Assembly (NCBI GenBank): GCA_003153435.1
Contig: PLYR01000075.1
Coordinates: 9,708-56,247, forward strand
Reading direction: 5' to 3'
Origin: Bacteroidota bacterium
GTDB taxonomy: Bacteria; Bacteroidota; Bacteroidia; Palsa-965
Length of the DNA stretch: 46,540 bases
The stretch's first letter is position 1. Each line of letters starts with the position of its first letter. Below are positions 4,375-19,560 of this stretch, piece by piece. The notes under the pieces were generated by a model, which saw only the letters and a list, made by a program, of their open reading frames with translations, searched no databases and had not been told where the DNA came from. The position numbers and the translations under genes were made by a program.

Positions 4375-4404
4375 GCAATTAATAGGAAGTTAAGTTAATA
4401 TTAA
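4375..4404 (-). promoter_or_regulatory. Pho-box-like array upstream of phoB (three 11-bp repeats)
   Basis: On the minus strand the site reads TTAATATT-AAC, TTAACTTC-CTA, TTAATTGC: three TTAAnnnn units exactly 11 bp apart. The first unit starts 48 bp upstream of the -7 element. Direct repeats with 11-bp period are the hallmark of PhoB/PhoP binding sites: B. subtilis PhoP uses TTAACA-type repeats and cyanobacterial boxes use CTTAACCT-type repeats. Binding by the local regulator is inferred. Confidence 0.68.
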
Positions 4405-4538: not shown

Positions 4539-5216
4539 TCAATTTTCGAACCGGTATCCAATTCCTTTAACGGTCTTGATATGATTCTCTCCTATCTTCT
4601 CCCTTAGTTTACGGATATGCACATCAATAGTTCGGTTGCTCACCTCCATATCGCCTCCCCATACTTCATTATAGATTTCTTTCCGGGTAAAGACCTTTCT
4701 GGGAGAATAAAACAATAAGGACATCAATTCAAATTCTTTGCGGGGAAGGAGAATTTCCTGGCTTCCTTTTTTAATCAGGTAGCGTTCGCGGTCGATTACA
4801 ATACCATGAATGGAAGTACGGACCGGTGTCCTCACATGGAATCTGCGAAGGAGGGCTTTAATTCGGGAGAGAAAAATCTGAGGCCGGCAGGGTTTAAGTA
4901 TATAGTCATCCGCTCCGGCATTGAATCCGGCAATCTGTGAATAGTCTTCATTCCGGGTCGTAAAAAAAGCAATGAGCGTATCTTTGAGCCGGGTTATACT
5001 TCTGAACTCCGAGCAAACTTCAACACCATCCATTTCTGGGTTCAGAATGTCCATGATTATCAGGTTAGGAGTATGGAGCTTAGCGCCTTCCAGTCCCGCT
5101 CTGGGAGATGTAAAAAAATGGAGTTCGGCTTGAAGGAGAGAAAGGCTTCGGCTGATGAACTCATGTATCATGATATCGCTATCGATGACGAAGACTTTTA
5201 TTTTATCGCTTGACAT
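4539..5216 (-). CDS. Second PhoB-like OmpR-family response regulator, orphan
   Basis: This regulator parallels the adjacent PhoB-like protein along its whole length. The receiver has phosphoacceptor Asp56 (L-I-I-M-D-I-L-N-P-E), a Thr in F-F-T-T-R and Lys in L-K-P. The C-terminal winged helix has the same D-V-H-I-R-K-L-R-E-K-I-G signature. One of the paired acidic residues is changed: V-D-D-E in the paralogue is I-D-S-D here, so Asp13 is Ser13. The ATG at 5216 is preferred over a TTG at 5249 because it places the phosphoacceptor at residue 56, as in the paralogue, and lies just after the promoter. No kinase gene is adjacent. Its promoter carries three Pho-box-like repeats. Its target genes are unknown. 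Confidence 0.85.
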   Translation of the reverse strand: MSSDKIKVFVIDSDIMIHEFISRSLSLLQAELHFFTSPRAGLEGAKLHTPNLIIMDILNPEMDGVEVCSEFRSITRLKDTLIAFFTTRNEDYSQIAGFNAGADDYILKPCRPQIFLSRIKALLRRFHVRTPVRTSIHGIVIDRERYLIKKGSQEILLPRKEFELMSLLFYSPRKVFTRKEIYNEVWGGDMEVSNRTIDVHIRKLREKIGENHIKTVKGIGYRFEN

Positions 5217-5233
5217 GGGTTCTAATTTTGCTG

Positions 5234-5241
5234 CAAAATAA
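5234..5241 (-). promoter_or_regulatory. Probable -7 element of the orphan regulator
   Basis: The minus-strand reading is TTATTTTG, one mismatch from TAnnTTTG. It sits 29 bases downstream of the second repeat, the same spacing as at phoB and the porin. An alternative, CACATTTG (5254-5247), is also one mismatch away but does not fit the shared spacing. Confidence 0.45.
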
Positions 5242-5259
5242 CGCGGCAAATGTGGCCCA

Positions 5260-5289
5260 TGTGTTAAATCGGATTTAACATTGAATTAA
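5260..5289 (-). promoter_or_regulatory. Pho-box-like array upstream of the orphan regulator (three 11-bp repeats)
   Basis: On the minus strand the site reads TTAATTCA-ATG, TTAAATCC-GAT, TTAACACA. All three units begin with TTAA and are exactly 11 bp apart. The first unit begins 48 bp upstream of the probable -7 element, matching the phoB site. The array fills most of the 93-base gap between this gene and the efflux adaptor gene. Confidence 0.66.
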
Positions 5290-9662: not shown

Positions 9663-11081
9663 TTATTTCGTTTTAATACTGTTCATAAAGGAATTGAAGT
9701 CCCCGCTCACAGAAGATTTCAGGAGCAGCGCTTTCCATACCGCATCACGGGAAATGGCATTGTCTGCTTCGGCGCGATTGAGGTTGTAAAGCGACTGGCT
9801 CACATCAATGATGTTTGTCAGACCACTCTTATACATAGTCAGCTTTTGGTTATAGAAATCAAGAGCGGATTGGTACTGAACAGGAACTTGCTTCATCTCC
9901 TCCAGTGCTATCCGGAGTTTTTCATTTGCAAGCGTCAGGTCATTCTTCAGGTCCAGGGTTTGAGCTTCGAGCTCAGTCCTTGCGGCATCCGTTCTGAATT
10001 TTTGTGTTCCAAGTTCAGCCCTCATTCTCGGATAATCCAGGATATTGAAAGTGCAGGCAAGTCCAACAGCATAATTTAAACGCCTGAGTGCCGTCCCTCC
10101 TCCGAAGCTTTCGTCATAAGTTCCGTTAGGCATAATTCCGGAACCCCTGCCTTCGGTCACTCCAAGCACCGTAATTTTCGGAAAATAGTTTCTGGATATT
10201 TCCTTTTCCTTGATCTCACTTAAACCTTGTCTGGCTGCATACACTTTCAGAAGGGGATTGGCACTTACATCTGTTACCGGTGCAAGAGTGGTTGCCGGAG
10301 TGGAGAGCAAAAAGGTAGTGGTGTCGAGTTGGAAATCGCTGCTGGCAACCCCCATCAATCCTGCCAGCTTGTTGCGTTGTTCTGCCTCATTTTTCTCCGC
10401 ATCCAATACACTCAGCCTGGCCCTGGCTACTTCTGAGTTGGCAAAAGAGGTATCCACTCCAGGGCGGAGCCCGTTTTTCGCATTAATCGCCACTACATTC
10501 TGGAAGATCAACATTCGGTTCAGATTGTTGAGCTGAAGCTGTCTTAGCTTGGTGGCTATCAGGGCGTCCAGGTATGCCTGCGTGACATAGATGGAATTGT
10601 AAAACTTTTCCTGCTCTGCGTCAGCGCCAACCAACTGAAGCTGGATGTCAGATTCCTTTACCCTGGCTGCATATTGACCAAAGCTGAAAGGTACCCATTG
10701 AATGGCCCCCATTCCGGCTGCTCCATAAACAGGCGTGAAGTTGTTTGCCGCATCAATGGATCCGGAAGTGGAAAAACCATATGAAAAATAACTGCCGGCA
10801 ACTGAATTGGCGGTTGCATAATCAACTTGCCCATGCAATAAGAGAGCTGGCAGGTATTGACGTTTTACCTGTTTCACATTTTCTTCCTGGGCCTTTGTAT
10901 ACAGGTCTTTTGCTTTTATGATCCCATAATTGGCTGCGGCTGTTTCTAGGGCTTTTGATAATGACAAAGTCGTGCCCGATATCTGAGCCTGGGCATTTTC
11001 CATGTTTGAGGCGAAGGGAATAACAAGCATTACGAATATTTTTCGGATGCAGGTTTTCCTGTTGAATTTCTTAAAATTCAT
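9663..11081 (-). CDS. TolC-family outer-membrane efflux channel
   Basis: This 472-residue protein has an N-terminal signal region ending near A-Q-A-Q. It has the tandem TolC-type repeats of long amphipathic helices: A-L-E-T-A-A-A-N-Y-G near residue 45, and a second half with L-K-N-D-L-T-L-A and a late Y-K-S-G-L-T-N-I-I-D-V motif. It forms the outer-membrane exit duct of the tripartite pump encoded by the next two genes, with 3 bases between its stop and the pump start. The ATG at 11081 is the natural start. About 124 bases separate it from a possible small exported protein gene upstream. Confidence 0.93.
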   Translation of the reverse strand: MNFKKFNRKTCIRKIFVMLVIPFASNMENAQAQISGTTLSLSKALETAAANYGIIKAKDLYTKAQEENVKQVKRQYLPALLLHGQVDYATANSVAGSYFSYGFSTSGSIDAANNFTPVYGAAGMGAIQWVPFSFGQYAARVKESDIQLQLVGADAEQEKFYNSIYVTQAYLDALIATKLRQLQLNNLNRMLIFQNVVAINAKNGLRPGVDTSFANSEVARARLSVLDAEKNEAEQRNKLAGLMGVASSDFQLDTTTFLLSTPATTLAPVTDVSANPLLKVYAARQGLSEIKEKEISRNYFPKITVLGVTEGRGSGIMPNGTYDESFGGGTALRRLNYAVGLACTFNILDYPRMRAELGTQKFRTDAARTELEAQTLDLKNDLTLANEKLRIALEEMKQVPVQYQSALDFYNQKLTMYKSGLTNIIDVSQSLYNLNRAEADNAISRDAVWKALLLKSSVSGDFNSFMNSIKTK

Positions 11082-11685: not shown

Positions 11686-11726
11686 TTAATGTTAACTTAA
11701 TATTGAAGACTCTCATCCTTAACACC
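11686..11726 (+). promoter_or_regulatory. Pho-box-like site upstream of the porin-pst operon
   Basis: TTAATGTT (11686) and TTAATATT (11697) are separated by AAC and form a direct repeat with an 11-bp period. A third unit, TTAACACC at 11719, is on the same 11-bp grid, 33 bp from the first; the position at 11708 does not match. The first unit begins 48 bp upstream of the -7-like element, as at phoB. Confidence 0.68.
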
Positions 11727-11788: not shown

Positions 11789-13147
11789 ATGAAAAGAATG
11801 CTTACTACTAAGCTTATGATTGCCGGCGCTGCTTTAATTTTAGCCGGTGGAGTAAAGGCTCAGACAGCCGCCTCGGATGATACCAGCACATTTAAACCTT
11901 CGGGAAGTGTTTGGGGTTATGTCTTTGGTGACTATGCCTACAAAACACAGAACGATTCTCTCGGAAGAGGGGGAGGAAATGTTCAGTATAAAGGAGCTGC
12001 CTCTTTGAACTCCGGAAACATTGTTTCTGCTTCTAATCCGGTTCCTGCAAACGTTCAAACCAATGCTTTCCAAATCCGTCGGATGTATCTGGGTTATGAC
12101 TATCAGTTTGCACGTAACTTTTCAGCTTCTGCAGTATTGGCTAACGAACAGACCTTGCTCGGGAATAACCAGAATACTGTTTATCTGAAATATGCATTTG
12201 TAAAGTGGTCTAATATCTGGAAGAATAGTGATCTGATCATTGGTCAGTACCAGACCGCTTCTTTCGCAACCGGAAACGGAACAGAGCCACTCTGGGGATA
12301 CCGCGCAGTTGAAAGAACGCTTATGGATATGCATAATATCGATGGGTCTACCGACCTGGGTGCCTCCCTTCAGGGAAAAATCTGGGAAGCTAAGAATGTA
12401 ACTGCAGAAGGTAAAAAACCTTGTTATGTAGGTTACTACTTACAAGTTGGAAATGGTAATAGCGCTACTCCTGCAACTGCACAGTTCAGAAAAGTAAGAG
12501 CTAACCTTTATGTGTCTATGTTAAATCAGAAACTCGTATTAGGAGCATATTATGATTACGTCACCCAGCAGCTCTCTCCTTACAAAACGTCAAATACTAC
12601 CTACAAAGGGTACCTTTCTTTCAGGAATGAGTCTATTCACCTGGGTGCTGAGTTTTTCCAGCAGACGAACCAGAATTCGGACGTCTATAAGGTATTGGAG
12701 GACAAAACGAAGAACACCTTATCTGTGAACGATACAGCCTCTGGAGTTCAATTTGGAATGTCTGTTTTCGGGTCTGTTAAGATTGTGAAGAACAAACTGA
12801 ATTTCTTTGCCCGTTATGATATGTACAATCCTAATACCAAATGGAGCAACAGTAATGTGTATTCCAAAGCTTATTCAGGAATTACCGGAAGCAACTTGAC
12901 TTCCACAACTTTCTACACACAGACTTTCCTGACAGCCGGATTTGACTGGACACCAGACAAACGTTTTCACATCATGCCAAACGTATGGTACAACGCTTAC
13001 AATTCTATGATGAGTTCTTCTTACGCGGACTTCGTTGGGAAACCATTCAGTTCCCGTATGGTGAAGGATGAAGATATTGTTTACCGTGTTACTTTCTATT
13101 GGCTCTTTAATCCATCCAAAAAAGTTAACAATAATGGATTCTATTAA
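11789..13147 (+). CDS. Outer-membrane porin of the phosphate operon
   Basis: This 452-residue protein has a signal peptide (M-K-R-M-L-T-T-K-L-M-I-A-G-A-A-L) cleaved near V-K-A-Q. It then shows alternating aromatic-rich beta strands, for example F-Q-I-R-R-M-Y-L-G-Y-D-Y, and a C-terminal strand region Y-R-V-T-F-Y-W-L-F, as in OprO/OprP-like porins of Bacteroidota. Position directly before pstS, and a Pho-box-like site upstream, suggest that it admits phosphate or phosphorylated compounds across the outer membrane under starvation. Anion selectivity cannot be shown from sequence. A hairpin separates it from pstS. Confidence 0.83.
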   Translation: MKRMLTTKLMIAGAALILAGGVKAQTAASDDTSTFKPSGSVWGYVFGDYAYKTQNDSLGRGGGNVQYKGAASLNSGNIVSASNPVPANVQTNAFQIRRMYLGYDYQFARNFSASAVLANEQTLLGNNQNTVYLKYAFVKWSNIWKNSDLIIGQYQTASFATGNGTEPLWGYRAVERTLMDMHNIDGSTDLGASLQGKIWEAKNVTAEGKKPCYVGYYLQVGNGNSATPATAQFRKVRANLYVSMLNQKLVLGAYYDYVTQQLSPYKTSNTTYKGYLSFRNESIHLGAEFFQQTNQNSDVYKVLEDKTKNTLSVNDTASGVQFGMSVFGSVKIVKNKLNFFARYDMYNPNTKWSNSNVYSKAYSGITGSNLTSTTFYTQTFLTAGFDWTPDKRFHIMPNVWYNAYNSMMSSSYADFVGKPFSSRMVKDEDIVYRVTFYWLFNPSKKVNNNGFY

Positions 13148-13181
13148 ACGAAACAGTATTCAATATTAATGGCACATAAAT

Positions 13182-13212
13182 TGCTTCCGGAGAAGAAATT
13201 GCTCCGGAAGCA
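13182..13212 (+). terminator. Perfect hairpin between the porin gene and pstS
   Basis: TGCTTCCGGAG (13182-13192) pairs with CTCCGGAAGCA (13202-13212) in an 11-bp perfect stem with a 9-base loop, followed by TTTTAATTT. It resembles an intrinsic terminator or a 3'-end stabilising stem. Located within a co-directional operon, it would allow more porin than transporter to be made. Read-through is expected because pstS has no clear promoter of its own. Confidence 0.7.
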
Positions 13213-13236
13213 GTTTTAATTTAAAACAAACCCCAA

Positions 13237-14052
13237 ATGAAAAAAACACTATTACTAGTACCAGCAGCAGTACTGCTTCTCGCATTCGTGAAGCCAGGAA
13301 ACGACATCACCGTGAAGGGAAGTGATACCGTGCTGCCACTTTCTCAGAAAGAGGCGGAAGTATTTATGAAAAAAACACCAGCTGCATCTATTACTGTAGT
13401 AGGTGGAGGTTCAGGGGTAGGAATTACTGCTCTGATTGATGGCAATACAGATATCTGTATGTCATCGAGGGATCTTAAGATGGAAGAAAAATTGAAGCTG
13501 AAAGACAAGAACATTGTTCAAAAAGTAGTAGGTGTGGATGCACTTGCAATCATTGTCCACCCCTCCAACAAAGTAAATCAGCTTACCCGTGAGCAACTTG
13601 AAGGAATCTTTACTGGAAGTATCACAAACTGGAAAGATGTTGGAGGAGCGGATCTTAAAATTGTTGTTTATTCCAGGGAATCCAGTTCAGGTACTTATGA
13701 GTTCATGAAGGAGCACGTGATGGCCAAGAAGAACTATGCTTCTACTGTGCTAAGCATGCCTGCTACCGGTGCAATCGTACAAAGCGTTGAACAAACAGCC
13801 GGTGCCATTGGATATGTGGGCCTTGCCTACATGGACAAAAAGGTAAAAGCCCTTGCGGTTTCATTTGATGGCAAAACTTTTGTAAAACCAAGTATAGCAG
13901 CGGCAAAGGATAAAACCTACCCTGTAGCCAGGCCTTTGTATTACATCTATGCAGCCGCTTCAGAATCCAAGGTAAAGTCTTTTGTTGATTTTATTCTTTC
14001 TGCAGAAGGTCAAAAAGTTGTTCAGGACGTTGGATATGTGCCTGTAAAATAA
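13237..14052 (+). CDS. pstS: Phosphate ABC transporter substrate-binding protein
   Basis: This 271-residue periplasmic binding protein has a signal peptide (K-K-T-L-L-L-V-P-A-A-V-L-L-L-A-F). Phosphate-site motifs are recognisable: G-S-D-T-V-L-P-L-S near residue 28, G-G-G-S-G-V-G near 56, and R-E-S-S-S-G-T-Y-E near 147. No lipobox Cys is present, so it is probably soluble in the periplasm. It is somewhat shorter than E. coli PstS but of usual size for Bacteroidota. It lies downstream of the porin and upstream of pstC and delivers phosphate to PstCA. Confidence 0.94.
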   Translation: MKKTLLLVPAAVLLLAFVKPGNDITVKGSDTVLPLSQKEAEVFMKKTPAASITVVGGGSGVGITALIDGNTDICMSSRDLKMEEKLKLKDKNIVQKVVGVDALAIIVHPSNKVNQLTREQLEGIFTGSITNWKDVGGADLKIVVYSRESSSGTYEFMKEHVMAKKNYASTVLSMPATGAIVQSVEQTAGAIGYVGLAYMDKKVKALAVSFDGKTFVKPSIAAAKDKTYPVARPLYYIYAAASESKVKSFVDFILSAEGQKVVQDVGYVPVK

Positions 14053-14097
14053 ATAGGGTCATGTCCTTTTGCTTCGGGTAATTCAGCATTTTTATTC

Positions 14098-15309
14098 ATG
14101 AGAAGAAGCATAACGAAATTTTTTGAACGCGTAATTGAAGCGGCGTTAATGGTCAGCGGTACATTCACCAGTGTGATTGTGCTGCTGATCATTTTGTTTT
14201 TATTTAAAGAAGGAGCCGGGCTCTTCAATCAGACCCCGATGGAGAAAGGTTATGTAGTAGCAGTTAATTCTTCGAATCCGGTCAGTGAACTCTCTCCCGC
14301 TCAATTTAAAGACGTTTACGATGGGAAAATTATAACCTGGAAATCTCTTGGAGGGAATTCCGACAGTATCAAACTCTTTCGGGTGGATGACATAACCTCC
14401 TATTATACTGAGGAGCAAATCGGTTCGAATTTTGAACACCTGGGTGAATGTATCAGCAAGCTGGTTCAGAAGACTCCGAATATCATTGCTTTTTTCCCAA
14501 AAGAATATGCCGATTCTTCTTTTAAAGGGAAAACAATCAATCTTAAAAAAATCACTGCCTGGTCTTTTGTATCCGAAAAGGAATGGTTCCCGACTGCTCA
14601 GCCGGTTGCTCAATTTGGTGTCCTCTCTCTAATTCTGGGGACTCTATGGGTGAGCCTGGCAGCTATTCTCTTTGCATTACCTCTTGGTCTGGCAACAGCA
14701 ATATACCTTGCTGAAATAGCCGATTCTCGTGTTAGGAACATTCTTAAACCCCTTATTGAACTTCTTGCAGGTATTCCATCTGTGGTTTATGGCTTCTTCG
14801 GCTTGATTGTGATCGTACCGATGATCAAAAATATTTTCCATCTCGATGTGGGTGAGACCGCTTTGGCAGGCAGTATTATTCTCGGGATCATGGCTCTGCC
14901 TACCATCATTACTGTTTCAGAAGATGCTTTACGTAATACACCACGTGCCATGAAAGAAGCGAGCCTCGCGCTTGGAGCTTCCAAATGGCAGACTATTTAC
15001 AAAGTTTCAATTCCGTACTCCGCTTCTGGAATTACCGCCGGTGCAATTTTAGGAATCGGAAGAGCTATAGGTGAAACAATGGCTGTGCTGATGTGTACCG
15101 GAAATTCCGCCATCATACCACATACACTCCTCCAACCTGTGAGAACGATTCCGGCAACGATTGCAGCGGAATTAGGAGAAGCCGCACAAGGCGGAATGCA
15201 TTATAAAGCGCTCTTTGCACTCGGATGCATTTTGTTTATCATTACATTCTTTATAAACCTGTCTGTTGAACTCATCTCATCCAGACGGAAAGGAGGCAAG
15301 AACGAATGA
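14098..15309 (+). CDS. pstC: Phosphate ABC transporter permease PstC with an embedded PstS-like lobe
   Basis: This 403-residue permease is longer than the usual ~300-residue PstC. TM1 is at about residues 16-38. Residues ~53-151 then form a periplasmic insert that resembles one lobe of the neighbouring PstS: V-N-S-S-N-P-V-S-E-L-S aligns with H-P-S-N-K-V-N-Q-L-T, G-K-I-I-T-W-K-S-L-G-G with G-S-I-T-N-W-K-D-V-G-G, and V-Q-K-T-P-N-I-I-A-F-F with V-E-Q-T-A-G-A-I-G-Y-V. The permease core starts at about residue 170 (G-V-L-S-L-I-L-G-T-L) and carries the BPD_transp_1 EAA-type segment [12 protein letters not shown]. Its stop overlaps the pstA start by 4 bases. Core function is firm; the role of the insert is unknown. 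Confidence 0.93.
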   Translation: MRRSITKFFERVIEAALMVSGTFTSVIVLLIILFLFKEGAGLFNQTPMEKGYVVAVNSSNPVSELSPAQFKDVYDGKIITWKSLGGNSDSIKLFRVDDITSYYTEEQIGSNFEHLGECISKLVQKTPNIIAFFPKEYADSSFKGKTINLKKITAWSFVSEKEWFPTAQPVAQFGVLSLILGTLWVSLAAILFALPLGLATAIYLAEIADSRVRNILKPLIELLAGIPSVVYGFFGLIVIVPMIKNIFHLDVGETALAGSIILGIMALPTIITVSEDALRNTPRAMKEASLALGASKWQTIYKVSIPYSASGITAGAILGIGRAIGETMAVLMCTGNSAIIPHTLLQPVRTIPATIAAELGEAAQGGMHYKALFALGCILFIITFFINLSVELISSRRKGGKNE

Positions 15310-16190
15310 AACATCCGGATCACGTAAAAGTCAGGAAAAAGAAGACCCGAAACCAGAACCTGGCATTCGTGTCCTTCGGCATAGTGAGTTTTGGTATTGT
15401 AGCCATTCTGATTGTTATTCTGTCTTTCATTGTATTCCACGGCTTCAAAGCCCTAAGCTGGGATTTTATAACAAAAATGCCGGAGGATGGAATGACCAAG
15501 GGTGGGATTTTCCCTGCAATCATCGGAACACTTTATCTGGTGACTGGCAGTATGTTGTTTGCCTTTCCAATTGGGGTCATGTCTGGAATCTATATAAATG
15601 AATACGCCAAAGACGGATATATCAAGCGGTTTATTCAAATGATGACGAATAACCTTGCCGGAGTTCCTTCCATTGTGTTCGGCCTTTTTGGAATGTCTCT
15701 GTTCGTTAATAAATTGAAATTCGGCGACTCTATTCTGGCCGGTTCTCTTACCCTTGGGTTATTGGCCCTGCCTGTGGTTATCCGAACTACCGAAGAAGCA
15801 TTGAAAGCAATTGATAATTCTTTCCGAATCGGAAGCCTTGCCCTGGGCGCATCCAAATGGCAGACAACCAAAAGAGTGGTCATGCCAATGGCATTTCCGA
15901 ATGTCATTACAGGACTCATATTGTCTATCGGACGTGTTTCCGGAGAGACAGCTCCAATTTTATTTACGGTTGCAGCCTATTTCCTCCCAAAATTGCCACA
16001 CAGTATTTTCGATCAAGTCATGGCACTCCCTTACCACTTGTATGTGATTTCAACCAGCGGAACAAATATCGAGGCCTCCAGAGGAATGGCTTATGGTACT
16101 GCACTGGTGCTGATTATCCTGGTCCTGATAGCCAATCTGCTTGCAAATGCATTGAGAAGATATTTTGGTAAAAAAGTGAAAATGAATTGA
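15306..16190 (+). CDS. pstA: Phosphate ABC transporter permease PstA
   Basis: This 294-residue inner-membrane permease has about six hydrophobic segments. It has the conserved [10 protein letters not shown] region near residue 63 and the ATPase-contact loop [11 protein letters not shown] near residue 178. It pairs with PstC as the second permease subunit. The start ATG overlaps the pstC stop (ATGA), indicating translational coupling, and pstB follows 4 bases after its stop. Confidence 0.95.
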
Positions 16191-16194
16191 GCTC

Positions 16195-16947
16195 ATGAAT
16201 AAGATCGAAACACAAAATGTAAACCTTCACTATGGTGATTTTCATGCCCTCAAAGGCATCACAATGTCCATCGTCGAGAATTCTGTTACTGCGCTCATCG
16301 GCCCTTCGGGCTGTGGTAAATCAACATATCTGAGGCTCTTTAATCGGATGAATGACCTGATCAGCAACGTTAAGATTGAAGGAGATGTGCTAGTTGAAGG
16401 TAAAGATATTTATGAACGGGGTGTGGATGTGGATGAACTGAGAAAGAAAGTAGGTATGGTATTCCAAAAACCTAATCCCTTTCCTAAAACAATTTTTGAA
16501 AATGTGGCGTATGGATTGAGAGTGAATGGCATTAACGATAAGGAATTTATTGCTGAAAGAGTGGAGCGGTCTCTTCAACAATCTGCCCTCTGGGGAGAAG
16601 TGAAAGACAAGCTGAAAAAGTCGGCTTTTGAGCTTTCCGGAGGACAGCAACAGCGCCTTTGCATTGCACGGGCACTCGCCATTGAACCCACTGTGTTGCT
16701 GATGGATGAGCCAGCTTCTGCTCTGGATCCGTTATCAACCGCTAAAATTGAAGAACTGATTTATGAGCTTAAAGATAAGTACACCATTATAATCGTGACG
16801 CACAATATGCAACAAGCCGGACGTGTAAGTGACCGGACTGCCTTTTTCTATATGGGAGAGCTTATTGAAGCTGACGAGACAAAAGTTATTTTTACAAATC
16901 CCAAGAATGTAAGAACGCAAAACTATATTACCGGAAGGTTCGGTTAA
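16195..16947 (+). CDS. pstB: Phosphate ABC transporter ATP-binding protein
   Basis: This 250-residue ATPase is of standard PstB length. Walker A is G-P-S-G-C-G-K-S-T (near residue 38), the Q-loop segment is V-F-Q-K-P-N-P-F-P, the ABC signature is L-S-G-G-Q-Q-Q-R, Walker B is [13 protein letters not shown], and the switch His is in I-V-T-H-N-M-Q-Q-A. The Q-K-P-N-P-F-P segment is characteristic of PstB among ABC ATPases. It powers PstCA and probably also takes part in PhoU/PhoR signalling. Confidence 0.97.
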
Positions 16948-16992
16948 CAGCAAACAGCATTATTCCAGATCAAAAAGAGAGTTATTAAGATA

Positions 16993-17000
16993 TAATTTTG
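16993..17000 (+). promoter_or_regulatory. Possible internal -7 element before phoU
   Basis: TAATTTTG matches TAnnTTTG and lies 18 bases upstream of the phoU start, within the 71-base pstB-phoU gap. No paired TTAA array accompanies it; only a single TTAACAGC half-site is seen at 16944. It may allow Pho-independent phoU expression. Confidence 0.4.
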
Positions 17001-17018
17001 AACATTTAATTAAGCAAC

Positions 17019-17684
17019 ATGTCACACCTTGAAAGTGAACTGAAATTTCTAAAGGATGAACTTTTGGCCATGCATAGCCTGGTAAGGTTGCAGGTGAATA
17101 AATGCAAGACAGCGTTGATCGAGTTTGATACAGATCTCGCGAAGGAAATTCTTGTTACTGAAAAACGGGTAAATGCGCTTGAGCTAAAGATTGACAGAGA
17201 TTGTGAAAATATCCTGGCCCTTTTTAACCCTGTAGCGGTTGATTTACGGTTCGTGCTCGCCGCATTGAAAATCAATTCAAACCTGGAAAGGATAGGAGAT
17301 AATGCAGAAGGAATTGCGCGGTATGTTATGGATGTTCATGAGCCTTTTCCCAAGGAATATATAAATGCTTTCGCCATCAATGAAATGGCTGATGTTGCAC
17401 TCTCCATGATGGATGATGCAATGCTGGCATTGGAGAACGAGGACACTGCTTCTGCCCGGAAAATATTCCTCAAAGATGATTCCCTCGATATCATCAACAG
17501 GAAGGCAACCAGAACTACCATTGAACTCATGCTTAGAAAAGACCCAATGCCATTGCATTTCCTCAATTTAATGTCTATCGTGAGAAAATTTGAAAGAATC
17601 GGGGATCAAACCAAGAACATTTCCGAAGAGATCATCTTCTACATAGAAGCCAAGGTACTCCGCCATGGTAAAATTATAGACTGA
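17019..17684 (+). CDS. phoU: PhoU, phosphate signalling regulator
   Basis: This 221-residue all-helical protein is built of two PhoU repeats. Each contains the family motif E-R-I-G-D: N-L-E-R-I-G-D-N-A-E-G-I-A near residue 88 and F-E-R-I-G-D-Q-T-K-N-I near residue 190. Length matches PhoU. In known systems PhoU links PstSCAB transport state to PhoR and keeps the regulon off when phosphate is plentiful. Its place at the end of the pst operon is the usual one. Confidence 0.95.
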   Translation: MSHLESELKFLKDELLAMHSLVRLQVNKCKTALIEFDTDLAKEILVTEKRVNALELKIDRDCENILALFNPVAVDLRFVLAALKINSNLERIGDNAEGIARYVMDVHEPFPKEYINAFAINEMADVALSMMDDAMLALENEDTASARKIFLKDDSLDIINRKATRTTIELMLRKDPMPLHFLNLMSIVRKFERIGDQTKNISEEIIFYIEAKVLRHGKIID

Positions 17685-17729: not shown

Positions 17730-17748
17730 TTAACATTATGTTAACATT
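17730..17748 (+). promoter_or_regulatory. Pho-box-like site upstream of the DUF47-PiT operon
   Basis: Two identical units TTAACATT (17730 and 17741) are separated by ATG, giving an exact 11-bp direct repeat. It starts 47 bp upstream of the -7 element TACTTTTG. The unit contains TTAACA, the B. subtilis PhoP-box consensus. Regulator binding is inferred. Confidence 0.7.
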
Positions 17749-17842: not shown

Positions 17843-18490
17843 ATGAAACTGGACGGCATACTTCAATTCCTTATTCCTAAGGATAAAAAGTTCTTCCCCC
17901 TCTTTGAACAGGCCACGGCCAATATGGTCCAAACCGCAGAAACACTCTGCACCCTGGGGAACTCGAACACCAATGAAAAGAGAAAAGTAGCGATCAAGGA
18001 AATTGAAAGGCTTGAACATATCGGTGATAATATCACGCATATGATATTTAACGAATTGGGGACTAATTTCATCACTCCTTTCGATCGGGAAGATATCCAG
18101 TCACTCGCATCGGTGATTGACGATGTGGTGGATCTCATTCATGGCTCAGCTAAACGGATTGATCTGTACAAGATTGAAGAAATGTCAACTCCGATGATTA
18201 AGCTCGCTGAACTCATCTTGAAAGGTGCAATGGAAATACATGTTGCAGTAGTTAATCTGAAGAGCATGAAAAATATCAGTGCTATAAAGGAAGCTCTGGT
18301 AAAAGTACATAGCCTGGAAAACCATGCCGATGAGGTATTCAATAATGGAATCGCAAGATTATTTGAAGAAGAGAAGGATGCTATTCAGATTATTAAGATC
18401 AAAGAGATTCTGAGTGCCCTGGAAACTGCAACTGATAAATGTGAAGATGCTGCGGATGTGATCCACTCTATCCTGATAAAAACGACTTAA
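17843..18490 (+). CDS. DUF47 (PhoU-like) phosphate transport accessory protein
   Basis: This 215-residue helical protein matches the DUF47/TIGR00153 family, distantly related to PhoU. It has the motif L-E-H-I-G-D-N-I-T-H near residue 55 and D-D-V-V-D-L-I-H-G near residue 94. Members are typically encoded next to PiT transporters and are thought to modulate them. Here the PiT gene begins 8 bases after its stop, so they form one operon. A dedicated promoter with a Pho-box-like repeat precedes it. Confidence 0.92.
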   Translation: MKLDGILQFLIPKDKKFFPLFEQATANMVQTAETLCTLGNSNTNEKRKVAIKEIERLEHIGDNITHMIFNELGTNFITPFDREDIQSLASVIDDVVDLIHGSAKRIDLYKIEEMSTPMIKLAELILKGAMEIHVAVVNLKSMKNISAIKEALVKVHSLENHADEVFNNGIARLFEEEKDAIQIIKIKEILSALETATDKCEDAADVIHSILIKTT

Positions 18491-18498
18491 ATGCCACT

Positions 18499-19560
18499 AT
18501 GCTTGCCATTGTTTTCTTAACCATATTAGCCGCTCTTGTTTTCGACTTTGTAAACGGGATGAATGATGCTGCGAACTCTATCGCAACTATTGTGTCCACC
18601 CGGATTCTTTCTCCCCGAGTTGCAGTGATCTGGGCTGCATTCTTCAATTTTGCGGCTTTATTTATTTTCGACGGATCTAAAGTTGCAGGAACAGTCGGTA
18701 AAGGAATTGTGAGCAGTACGTTCATTGATGAATACCTGATTCTTTCGGCATTGTTGGGAGCTATTATCTGGGCCTGGTTTTTCTGTGCCCGGCTCGGTAT
18801 TCCGGTGAGCTCCTCCCATTCCCTTACCGGGGGCTTGATTGGAGCAGCTATAGCCAAAGCGCATGGGTTCTCAGCATTGGTTTTGACTACCGCTACCGGT
18901 GGTTTTTTTAGCACCAAGATTTTTATCACCCTGCTTTTTATTTTTCTGGCTCCAATGATCGGACTGATTTTAGGTTACCTCATCATGGTCATCACCATGT
19001 GGGTCGCTCGCAGGTTTAATCCATCCCGGATCGATAAATTCTTTCGAATGGGTCAGTTGCTCTCCTCAGCTGCATTTAGTATAGGACATGGAGGGAATGA
19101 TGCTCAAAAAACAATGGGAATCATTACCGTTTTGCTATACTCTACCCGGAATATCCCCTTCGTTCACCAATATCTTTATCCCTATGGCGATTTCCATGTG
19201 CCGACTTGGGTATCTATTCTTTCTCTTACTGTTATTTCTCTTGGCACAATGTCTGGTGGAATGCGGATTGTGAAAACCATGGGAATGAAGCTTACTCACC
19301 TCAAACCGATAGGAGGATTTAGTGCAGAGACTGCAGGTGCCATTACGCTCTATGCTGCCACCAGCATCGGTATTCCGGTGAGTACCACCCAAACTATTGC
19401 AGGTGCTATCATGGGAGTTGGTACTACCCGAAGATTTTCTGCAGTAAGATGGGGAATTGCCGGAAATATTATTACTACCTGGATTCTGACGATACCCCTT
19501 TCCGCATTGATCGGTGGAGTGATTTACTTTATCATGAGTTATTTTATCCCCGCTTCCTGA
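18499..19560 (+). CDS. PiT-family inorganic phosphate transporter
   Basis: This 353-residue membrane protein has about ten hydrophobic segments and the two PiT signature repeats: G-M-N-D-A-A-N-S-I-A in the first half (near residue 20) and G-G-N-D-A-Q-K-T-M-G in the second half (near residue 197). PiT carriers import phosphate as a metal-phosphate complex with protons or sodium. A second ATG at 18491 is out of frame. Co-transcription with the DUF47 protein is likely. Its Pho-box-like promoter suggests induction together with the pst operon, unlike the constitutive pitA of E. coli. Confidence 0.94.
   Translation: MLAIVFLTILAALVFDFVNGMNDAANSIATIVSTRILSPRVAVIWAAFFNFAALFIFDGSKVAGTVGKGIVSSTFIDEYLILSALLGAIIWAWFFCARLGIPVSSSHSLTGGLIGAAIAKAHGFSALVLTTATGGFFSTKIFITLLFIFLAPMIGLILGYLIMVITMWVARRFNPSRIDKFFRMGQLLSSAAFSIGHGGNDAQKTMGIITVLLYSTRNIPFVHQYLYPYGDFHVPTWVSILSLTVISLGTMSGGMRIVKTMGMKLTHLKPIGGFSAETAGAITLYAATSIGIPVSTTQTIAGAIMGVGTTRRFSAVRWGIAGNIITTWILTIPLSALIGGVIYFIMSYFIPAS

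Follow-up and report, generated by a model that had tools for sequence, protein, structure and literature searches.

A PhoB paralogue with a non-canonical receiver and its own Pho-box-like promoter at the phosphate locus of a Bacteroidia genome

A second regulator beside PhoB1 and PhoR

What does a second PhoB contribute to a phosphate locus when it has no kinase of its own and a serine in its acidic pocket? The stretch of 46,540 nucleotides that raises this question (the window) lies on contig 121 of the draft genome G000 (Bacteroidia, 4.02 Mb). Its minus strand carries, in order, an efflux operon (tolC-RND-hlyD, 11081-5310), the orphan gene phoB2 (5216-4539), phoB1 (4332-3649) and phoR (3645-2614), and a glycosyltransferase-28-like gene of the pho cluster (PF04101; 1625-2611) lies on the plus strand. 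The plus strand also holds a porin-like outer-membrane gene followed by pstS, pstC, pstA, pstB and phoU (11789-17684; an HMM identified pstS, and the other genes were assigned from their translations and synteny), and then genes for a PhoU-like/DUF47 protein and a Pit phosphate permease (17843-19560, assigned by eye). The porin-like gene itself (11789-13147, plus strand) has a Pho-box-like site upstream and matched no Pfam or NCBIfam family. The TolC-like protein, RND pump and HlyD adaptor of the efflux operon are encoded directly upstream of phoB2, and an RND efflux operon lies near phoB2 in two same-genus relatives too. We searched for a terminator or structured RNA between phoB2 and phoB1 and found none.

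PhoB1 is a canonical PhoB (pocket D12 D13 D56 T86 K) paired with PhoR, its probable partner kinase. PhoR is short (343 aa), and Pfam recognised only HisKA and HATPase_c in it, with no sensor domain. The open reading frame listed for phoB2 begins at TTG 5249; comparison with relatives places the conserved start at ATG 5216, giving a protein of 225 aa and the residue numbering used here. A sequence-only reading of the window had described this protein as PhoB-like along its length, with Ser13 in the acidic pair, phosphoacceptor Asp56 and the Lys and Thr switch residues retained, and no adjacent kinase. This description held in each respect: PhoB2 is 50% identical to PhoB1, its next relative in the genome reaching at most 31%; its receiver has D12-S13 where the acidic pair would stand, with D56, T86 (followed by T87) and K108 intact; and it has no kinase of its own, though phoB1 and phoR lie downstream in the same orientation. 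Response_reg and Trans_reg_C both score above the Pfam gathering thresholds, the architecture of an OmpR/PhoB response regulator. The structural model (mean pLDDT 85) has a receiver and a winged helix of the usual kind, and the matches of a fold search were confined to OmpR/PhoB regulators, either ordinary or already known as atypical.

When the genome's other regulators serve as outgroup, trees place PhoB2 with PhoB and not with other OmpR-type proteins, so that the phylogeny which the earlier reading had proposed as a check left phoB2 inside PhoB. We nevertheless term it a PhoB paralogue rather than PhoB, because it misses the equivalog cut-offs of NCBIfam (models TIGR02154 and, for the Bacteroidota form, NF053854; 154.9 of 296.2 bits and 141.8 of 270 bits), a test that is not discriminating here since the window's canonical PhoB1 likewise falls below both.

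An orphan clade with a relaxed receiver

PhoB-like genes were gathered from relatives, and profile comparison split 33 PhoB2 from 111 PhoB1-type proteins, one borderline protein being excluded; most of the genomes are drafts, and the counts below come from related genomes. The orphan PhoB2 proteins form a monophyletic clade apart from PhoR-linked PhoB1 (UFBoot/SH-aLRT 100/99), with support of 98/88 when the pocket columns are removed. We rejected a long-branch artefact, since the clade survives removal of either the longest rows or the pocket columns and synteny agrees with it. The clade spans at least three Bacteroidia orders: it includes the window's own family, which is the whole of its order as sampled (12 genomes), and, from other orders, families f6 and f21; f31 and f34 contain less certain members. 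Own-family relatives, f6 and f21 share the arrangement phoB2-[secreted protein with a T9SS tail, TonB receptor]-phoB1-phoR, often with the glycosyltransferase, which supports a common origin of the clade. A close copy of the TonB receptor was not found in the window's own genome or in two genomes of the same genus (best partial match 9.5e-39, compared with 1e-128 or better in relatives; both same-genus drafts are incomplete). The adjacency of phoB2 and phoB1 in the window therefore probably arose by loss of this receptor.

Other receiver-like genes were encountered in the survey. Five further orphan PhoB-like paralogues (L163, L164, L167, L176 and L178) have intact pockets and fall outside the PhoB2 clade, and PhoB has therefore duplicated more than once in the class. 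An uncertain PhoB2 member, L162 (5348-6088, plus strand), combines an extremely degenerate receiver, with pocket K-S-P-S-S, with a DNA-binding domain that is still PhoB-like. A receiver-like fragment of about 109 aa lies between hlyD and phoB2 in one same-genus relative (L133, 3252-3578, minus strand), and in L054 small stand-alone receiver-like proteins (9724-10637, minus strand) are encoded between phoB2 and the TonB receptor gene pair.

Ser13 is no quirk of one gene. A canonical D-D-D pocket is present in all 109 readable PhoB1-type proteins, compared with 5 of the 33 PhoB2 proteins. The metal-binding position DD2, Ser13 in the window, is Ser, Thr, Asn, Pro or Ala in the non-canonical members; the phosphoacceptor Asp is replaced by Glu in ten of the 33; and most members carry a bulky or acidic residue at T+1. 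On the tree, these states require at least seven changes at the phosphoacceptor site and at least four in the acidity of DD2 within the clade. According to a 2025 review (PMC12632262), DD2 directly binds metal and is non-acidic in about 80% of pseudo-receivers, and Asp-to-Glu is a phosphomimetic change. By the definition given there, the serine at DD2 in the window and the 28 clade members without a canonical D-D-D pocket place PhoB2 among the pseudo-receivers.

The divergence extends to the kinase-docking surface. Across the nine genomes with both genes, helix α1 has a mean identity of 25% in PhoB2 versus 86% in PhoB1, and the receiver as a whole 52% versus 80%. Helix α1 has also diverged in the aligned PhoB2 members whose pocket is intact (L135, L136, L145 and L146), which suggests, as far as comparison of sequences can, that kinase docking was lost before the phosphorylation chemistry. 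For the same genome pair, dN is 0.23 for PhoB2 and 0.05 for PhoB1; dS is saturated, so that dN/dS, and with it the strength of purifying selection, is known only roughly.

Promoter arrays and the DNA-binding domain

Three TTAA units in perfect phase had been reported before phoB2, and they are indeed present, exactly 11 bp apart (5264-5267, 5275-5278 and 5286-5289, minus strand), 47 to 73 bp before ATG 5216. A second array of three units with the same spacing precedes phoB1 (4379-4404, minus strand). Pairs of the form TTAA-N7-TTAA occur in the window only upstream of these two genes, of the porin-pst operon (11686-11700, plus strand) and of the DUF47/PhoU-like and pit genes (17730-17744, plus strand). 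The 4.02-Mb genome contains five matches to the triple array, distributed over four loci: the phoB1 promoter, the phoB2 promoter, an AT-rich run and an intergenic stretch. We rejected chance as its origin, given four loci in 4 Mb of which two are phoB promoters. The intergenic copy (L235, 1501-1526, on contig 100 of the same genome) is surrounded by many short repeats and has no obvious gene beside it.

The three-unit array is kept in both same-genus relatives that have phoB2 (L052 and L133). Within 130 bp upstream, an N7 TTAA pair is found before 26 of the 33 phoB2 genes and 65 of the 111 PhoB1-type genes; the genomes being related, these counts are not independent of one another. Other spacings from 4 to 15 each occur in 0-5 of the 33 phoB2 upstreams. 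Control upstreams also show an excess of N7 pairs (135 versus about 33 of 1106), which probably reflects the many fetched loci that lie in pho regions. Two other assignments of the site were rejected. It does not belong to the upstream efflux operon, since in two same-genus relatives hlyD is 1.3-2.8 kb away and the array stays with phoB2. Nor is the palindrome GTTAAATC-G-GATTTAAC the operator of an unrelated regulator: L133 interrupts the palindrome (TTAAATGCCACTTAAC) but preserves the TTAA phase. Pho boxes generally take the form of 11-bp direct repeats (PMC4415409), and the phoB2 promoter carries such repeats, conserved in orthologues and rare genome-wide. This conserved Pho-box-like promoter makes membership of the Pho regulon the natural reading of phoB2 from its sequence.

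The output half of PhoB2 is better conserved than its receiver. Both paralogues share the recognition helix RTIDVHIRKLREK, and in the nine genomes with both genes the DNA-binding domain is 71% identical in PhoB2 versus 80% in PhoB1, and the dimer face 74% versus 91%. PhoB2 keeps the α4-β5-α5 dimer face and the recognition helix, together with the Tyr at K-3, the Thr and the Lys. The loop that contacts σ factor in Escherichia coli PhoB is different. Activation by that protein is lost in the mutants W184R, G185R, V190M and D192G, and its residues E177 and E191 point towards σ4 (PMC3973317). At position 177 (E. coli numbering throughout) 98 of 111 PhoB1 proteins are acidic, compared with 3 of 33 PhoB2 proteins, 18 of which have Lys; position 190 is Val or Ile in all 111 PhoB1 and in 3 of 33 PhoB2; and position 192 is Asp or Glu in 95 of 111 PhoB1, whereas 32 of 33 PhoB2 have Asn, a residue also found there in eight PhoB1-type proteins. 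The window's PhoB2 has K177, V190 and N192, two of the three loop changes, and retains W184 and G185. The primary σ factor and promoter of Bacteroidota differ from those of E. coli, so that the E. coli contact residues may not transfer.

A brake, a second activator or a second PhoR substrate?

The explanation that best accommodates these observations, which we hold with about even confidence from comparative sequence data, is that PhoB2 is a pseudo-receiver duplicate of PhoB inside the Pho regulon, whose amount rather than phosphorylation follows phosphate and which occupies the Pho boxes of PhoB1, with dampening a likelier effect than activation. Control through amount is a recognised model for pseudo-receivers (PMC12632262). 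phoB2 arose at the pho locus when a phoB gene was duplicated, and both its reading frame and its DNA-binding domain have been conserved. Because its promoter has a conserved Pho box, PhoR-PhoB1 most likely induces phoB2 when phosphate is short. Kinase docking and the metal and phosphate chemistry are lost or relaxed in the clade, and PhoB2 would on this ground probably work independently of phosphorylation, some members perhaps being locked toward the active form by the Asp-to-Glu change. Since the recognition helix and dimer face are kept, PhoB2 would occupy the Pho boxes of PhoB1, as a homodimer or as a heterodimer with PhoB1. In the weakest step, bound PhoB2 would most likely activate poorly, because the loop equivalent to the σ contact of E. 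coli PhoB is no longer conserved, and would dampen or cap the response, giving negative feedback by amount. The sequence-only reading had offered a second output or a dampener of the same regulon; the place of phoB2 at the Pho locus and its own conserved promoter keep this the natural reading, while the choice between activator and dampener is drawn, by analogy with E. coli, only from the diverged loop. Against our reading, the window's PhoB2 keeps D56, T86, K108, W184, G185 and V190, so that residual phosphorylation or activation is possible, and five members of the clade still have the D-D-D pocket intact. More tentatively, and with less than even confidence, we propose that the clade as a whole serves several Bacteroidota orders as a specialised brake on the Pho regulon. 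Docking and σ contact would have been lost early and the chemistry then shed repeatedly, including several independent Asp-to-Glu changes, and PhoB1 would induce the protein when needed, so that it fills the shared operators and limits the response.

The opposite direction of control, in which PhoB2 is induced by PhoB1, activates from the same boxes without phosphorylation and sustains or amplifies the response (positive feedback or memory), strikes us as possible but rather unlikely. The recurrent phosphomimetic Asp-to-Glu change (PMC12632262) and the retention of W184 and G185 favour it, as does the precedent of CmrT, proposed to act in this way under CmrR, in a pair with a DGD motif, Glu at the phosphorylation site and an auto-activating partner (PMC12548384). 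The loop, however, weighs against it, positions 177, 190 and 192 being relaxed or changed in charge across the PhoB2 clade and kept in most or all PhoB1 proteins.

Less favoured than either dampener or activator, and in our judgement improbable, is the suggestion of the sequence-only reading that PhoB2 shares PhoR or works by weak phosphorylation. In its favour, D56, T86 and K108 are intact, phoR is the second gene downstream in the same orientation, and the whole pocket survives in some orthologues. The comparison nevertheless tells against it: DD2, which binds the metal directly (PMC12632262), is Ser in the window and the metal pocket is lost in most members, α1 is unconserved even where the pocket is intact, most members have a bulky or acidic T+1, and ten orthologues have Glu in place of the phosphoacceptor Asp. 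Phosphorylation of PhoB2 by PhoR is thus disfavoured by its sequence.

That PhoB2 serves mainly as a heterodimer partner altering the affinity or target choice of PhoB1, as WhiI does with BldM, overlaps with our preferred explanation; as the main function we regard it as very unlikely, since the arrays are uniform direct repeats without sign of a composite operator, even though the dimer face is kept in both paralogues and precedents are known (PMC12632262). A decaying, functionless duplicate is scarcely credible: the faster evolution of PhoB2 and repeated loss of its pocket would fit, but its frames are intact across orders, dN is low relative to the saturated dS, and the DNA-binding domain and promoter box are conserved.

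Known counterparts and significance

PhoB2 shares with the PhoB of PhoR-PhoB systems the full-length OmpR/PhoB architecture, the recognition helix, the 11-bp direct-repeat type of Pho box and the location in a pho cluster, but differs in having no kinase of its own, Ser at DD2, and a diverged α1 and σ-contact loop. The nearest known design is CmrT of the Clostridioides difficile CmrRST system (PMC12548384), likewise an atypical regulator beside a normal kinase-regulator pair (CmrR-CmrS), its gene under the control of the normal partner, with DD2 replaced (DGD) and Glu at the phosphorylation site as in several PhoB2 members. CmrT is, however, probably no duplicate of CmrR, whereas PhoB2 shares the recognition helix of PhoB1 and has its own promoter; and the window's PhoB2 keeps Asp where CmrT has Glu. 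Pseudo-receiver regulators are a known kind, and ChxR, HP1043 and GlnR resemble PhoB2 in joining a pseudo-receiver to a conserved output domain, with phosphorylation-free dimers reported; none is described in the available text of the review (PMC12632262) as a paralogue within the regulon of a canonical sister. The phoBR cluster PUSIV of Flavobacterium johnsoniae, strongly induced on phosphate depletion, likewise combines phoB-phoR with a PF04101 glycosyltransferase, at a position matching that of the gene at 1625-2611 in the window, a TonB receptor and an outer-surface protein; the available text (PMC8115612) lists one PhoB (Fjoh_0544) and mentions no second. We found no description of a PhoB-derived pseudo-receiver inside a Pho regulon in the open-access literature searched.

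How pseudo-receivers are activated or inactivated is called a mystery in the same 2025 review (PMC12632262). PhoB2 pairs a pseudo-receiver with a canonical sister that has the same locus, operator type and recognition helix, a built-in control for the loss of phosphorylation, and its clade holds intact, metal-site-lost and Asp-to-Glu stages for comparison. If our reading is true, phosphate control in environmental Bacteroidota would gain a further layer of feedback through PhoB2, which may be a built-in brake or a second gear of the phosphate response.
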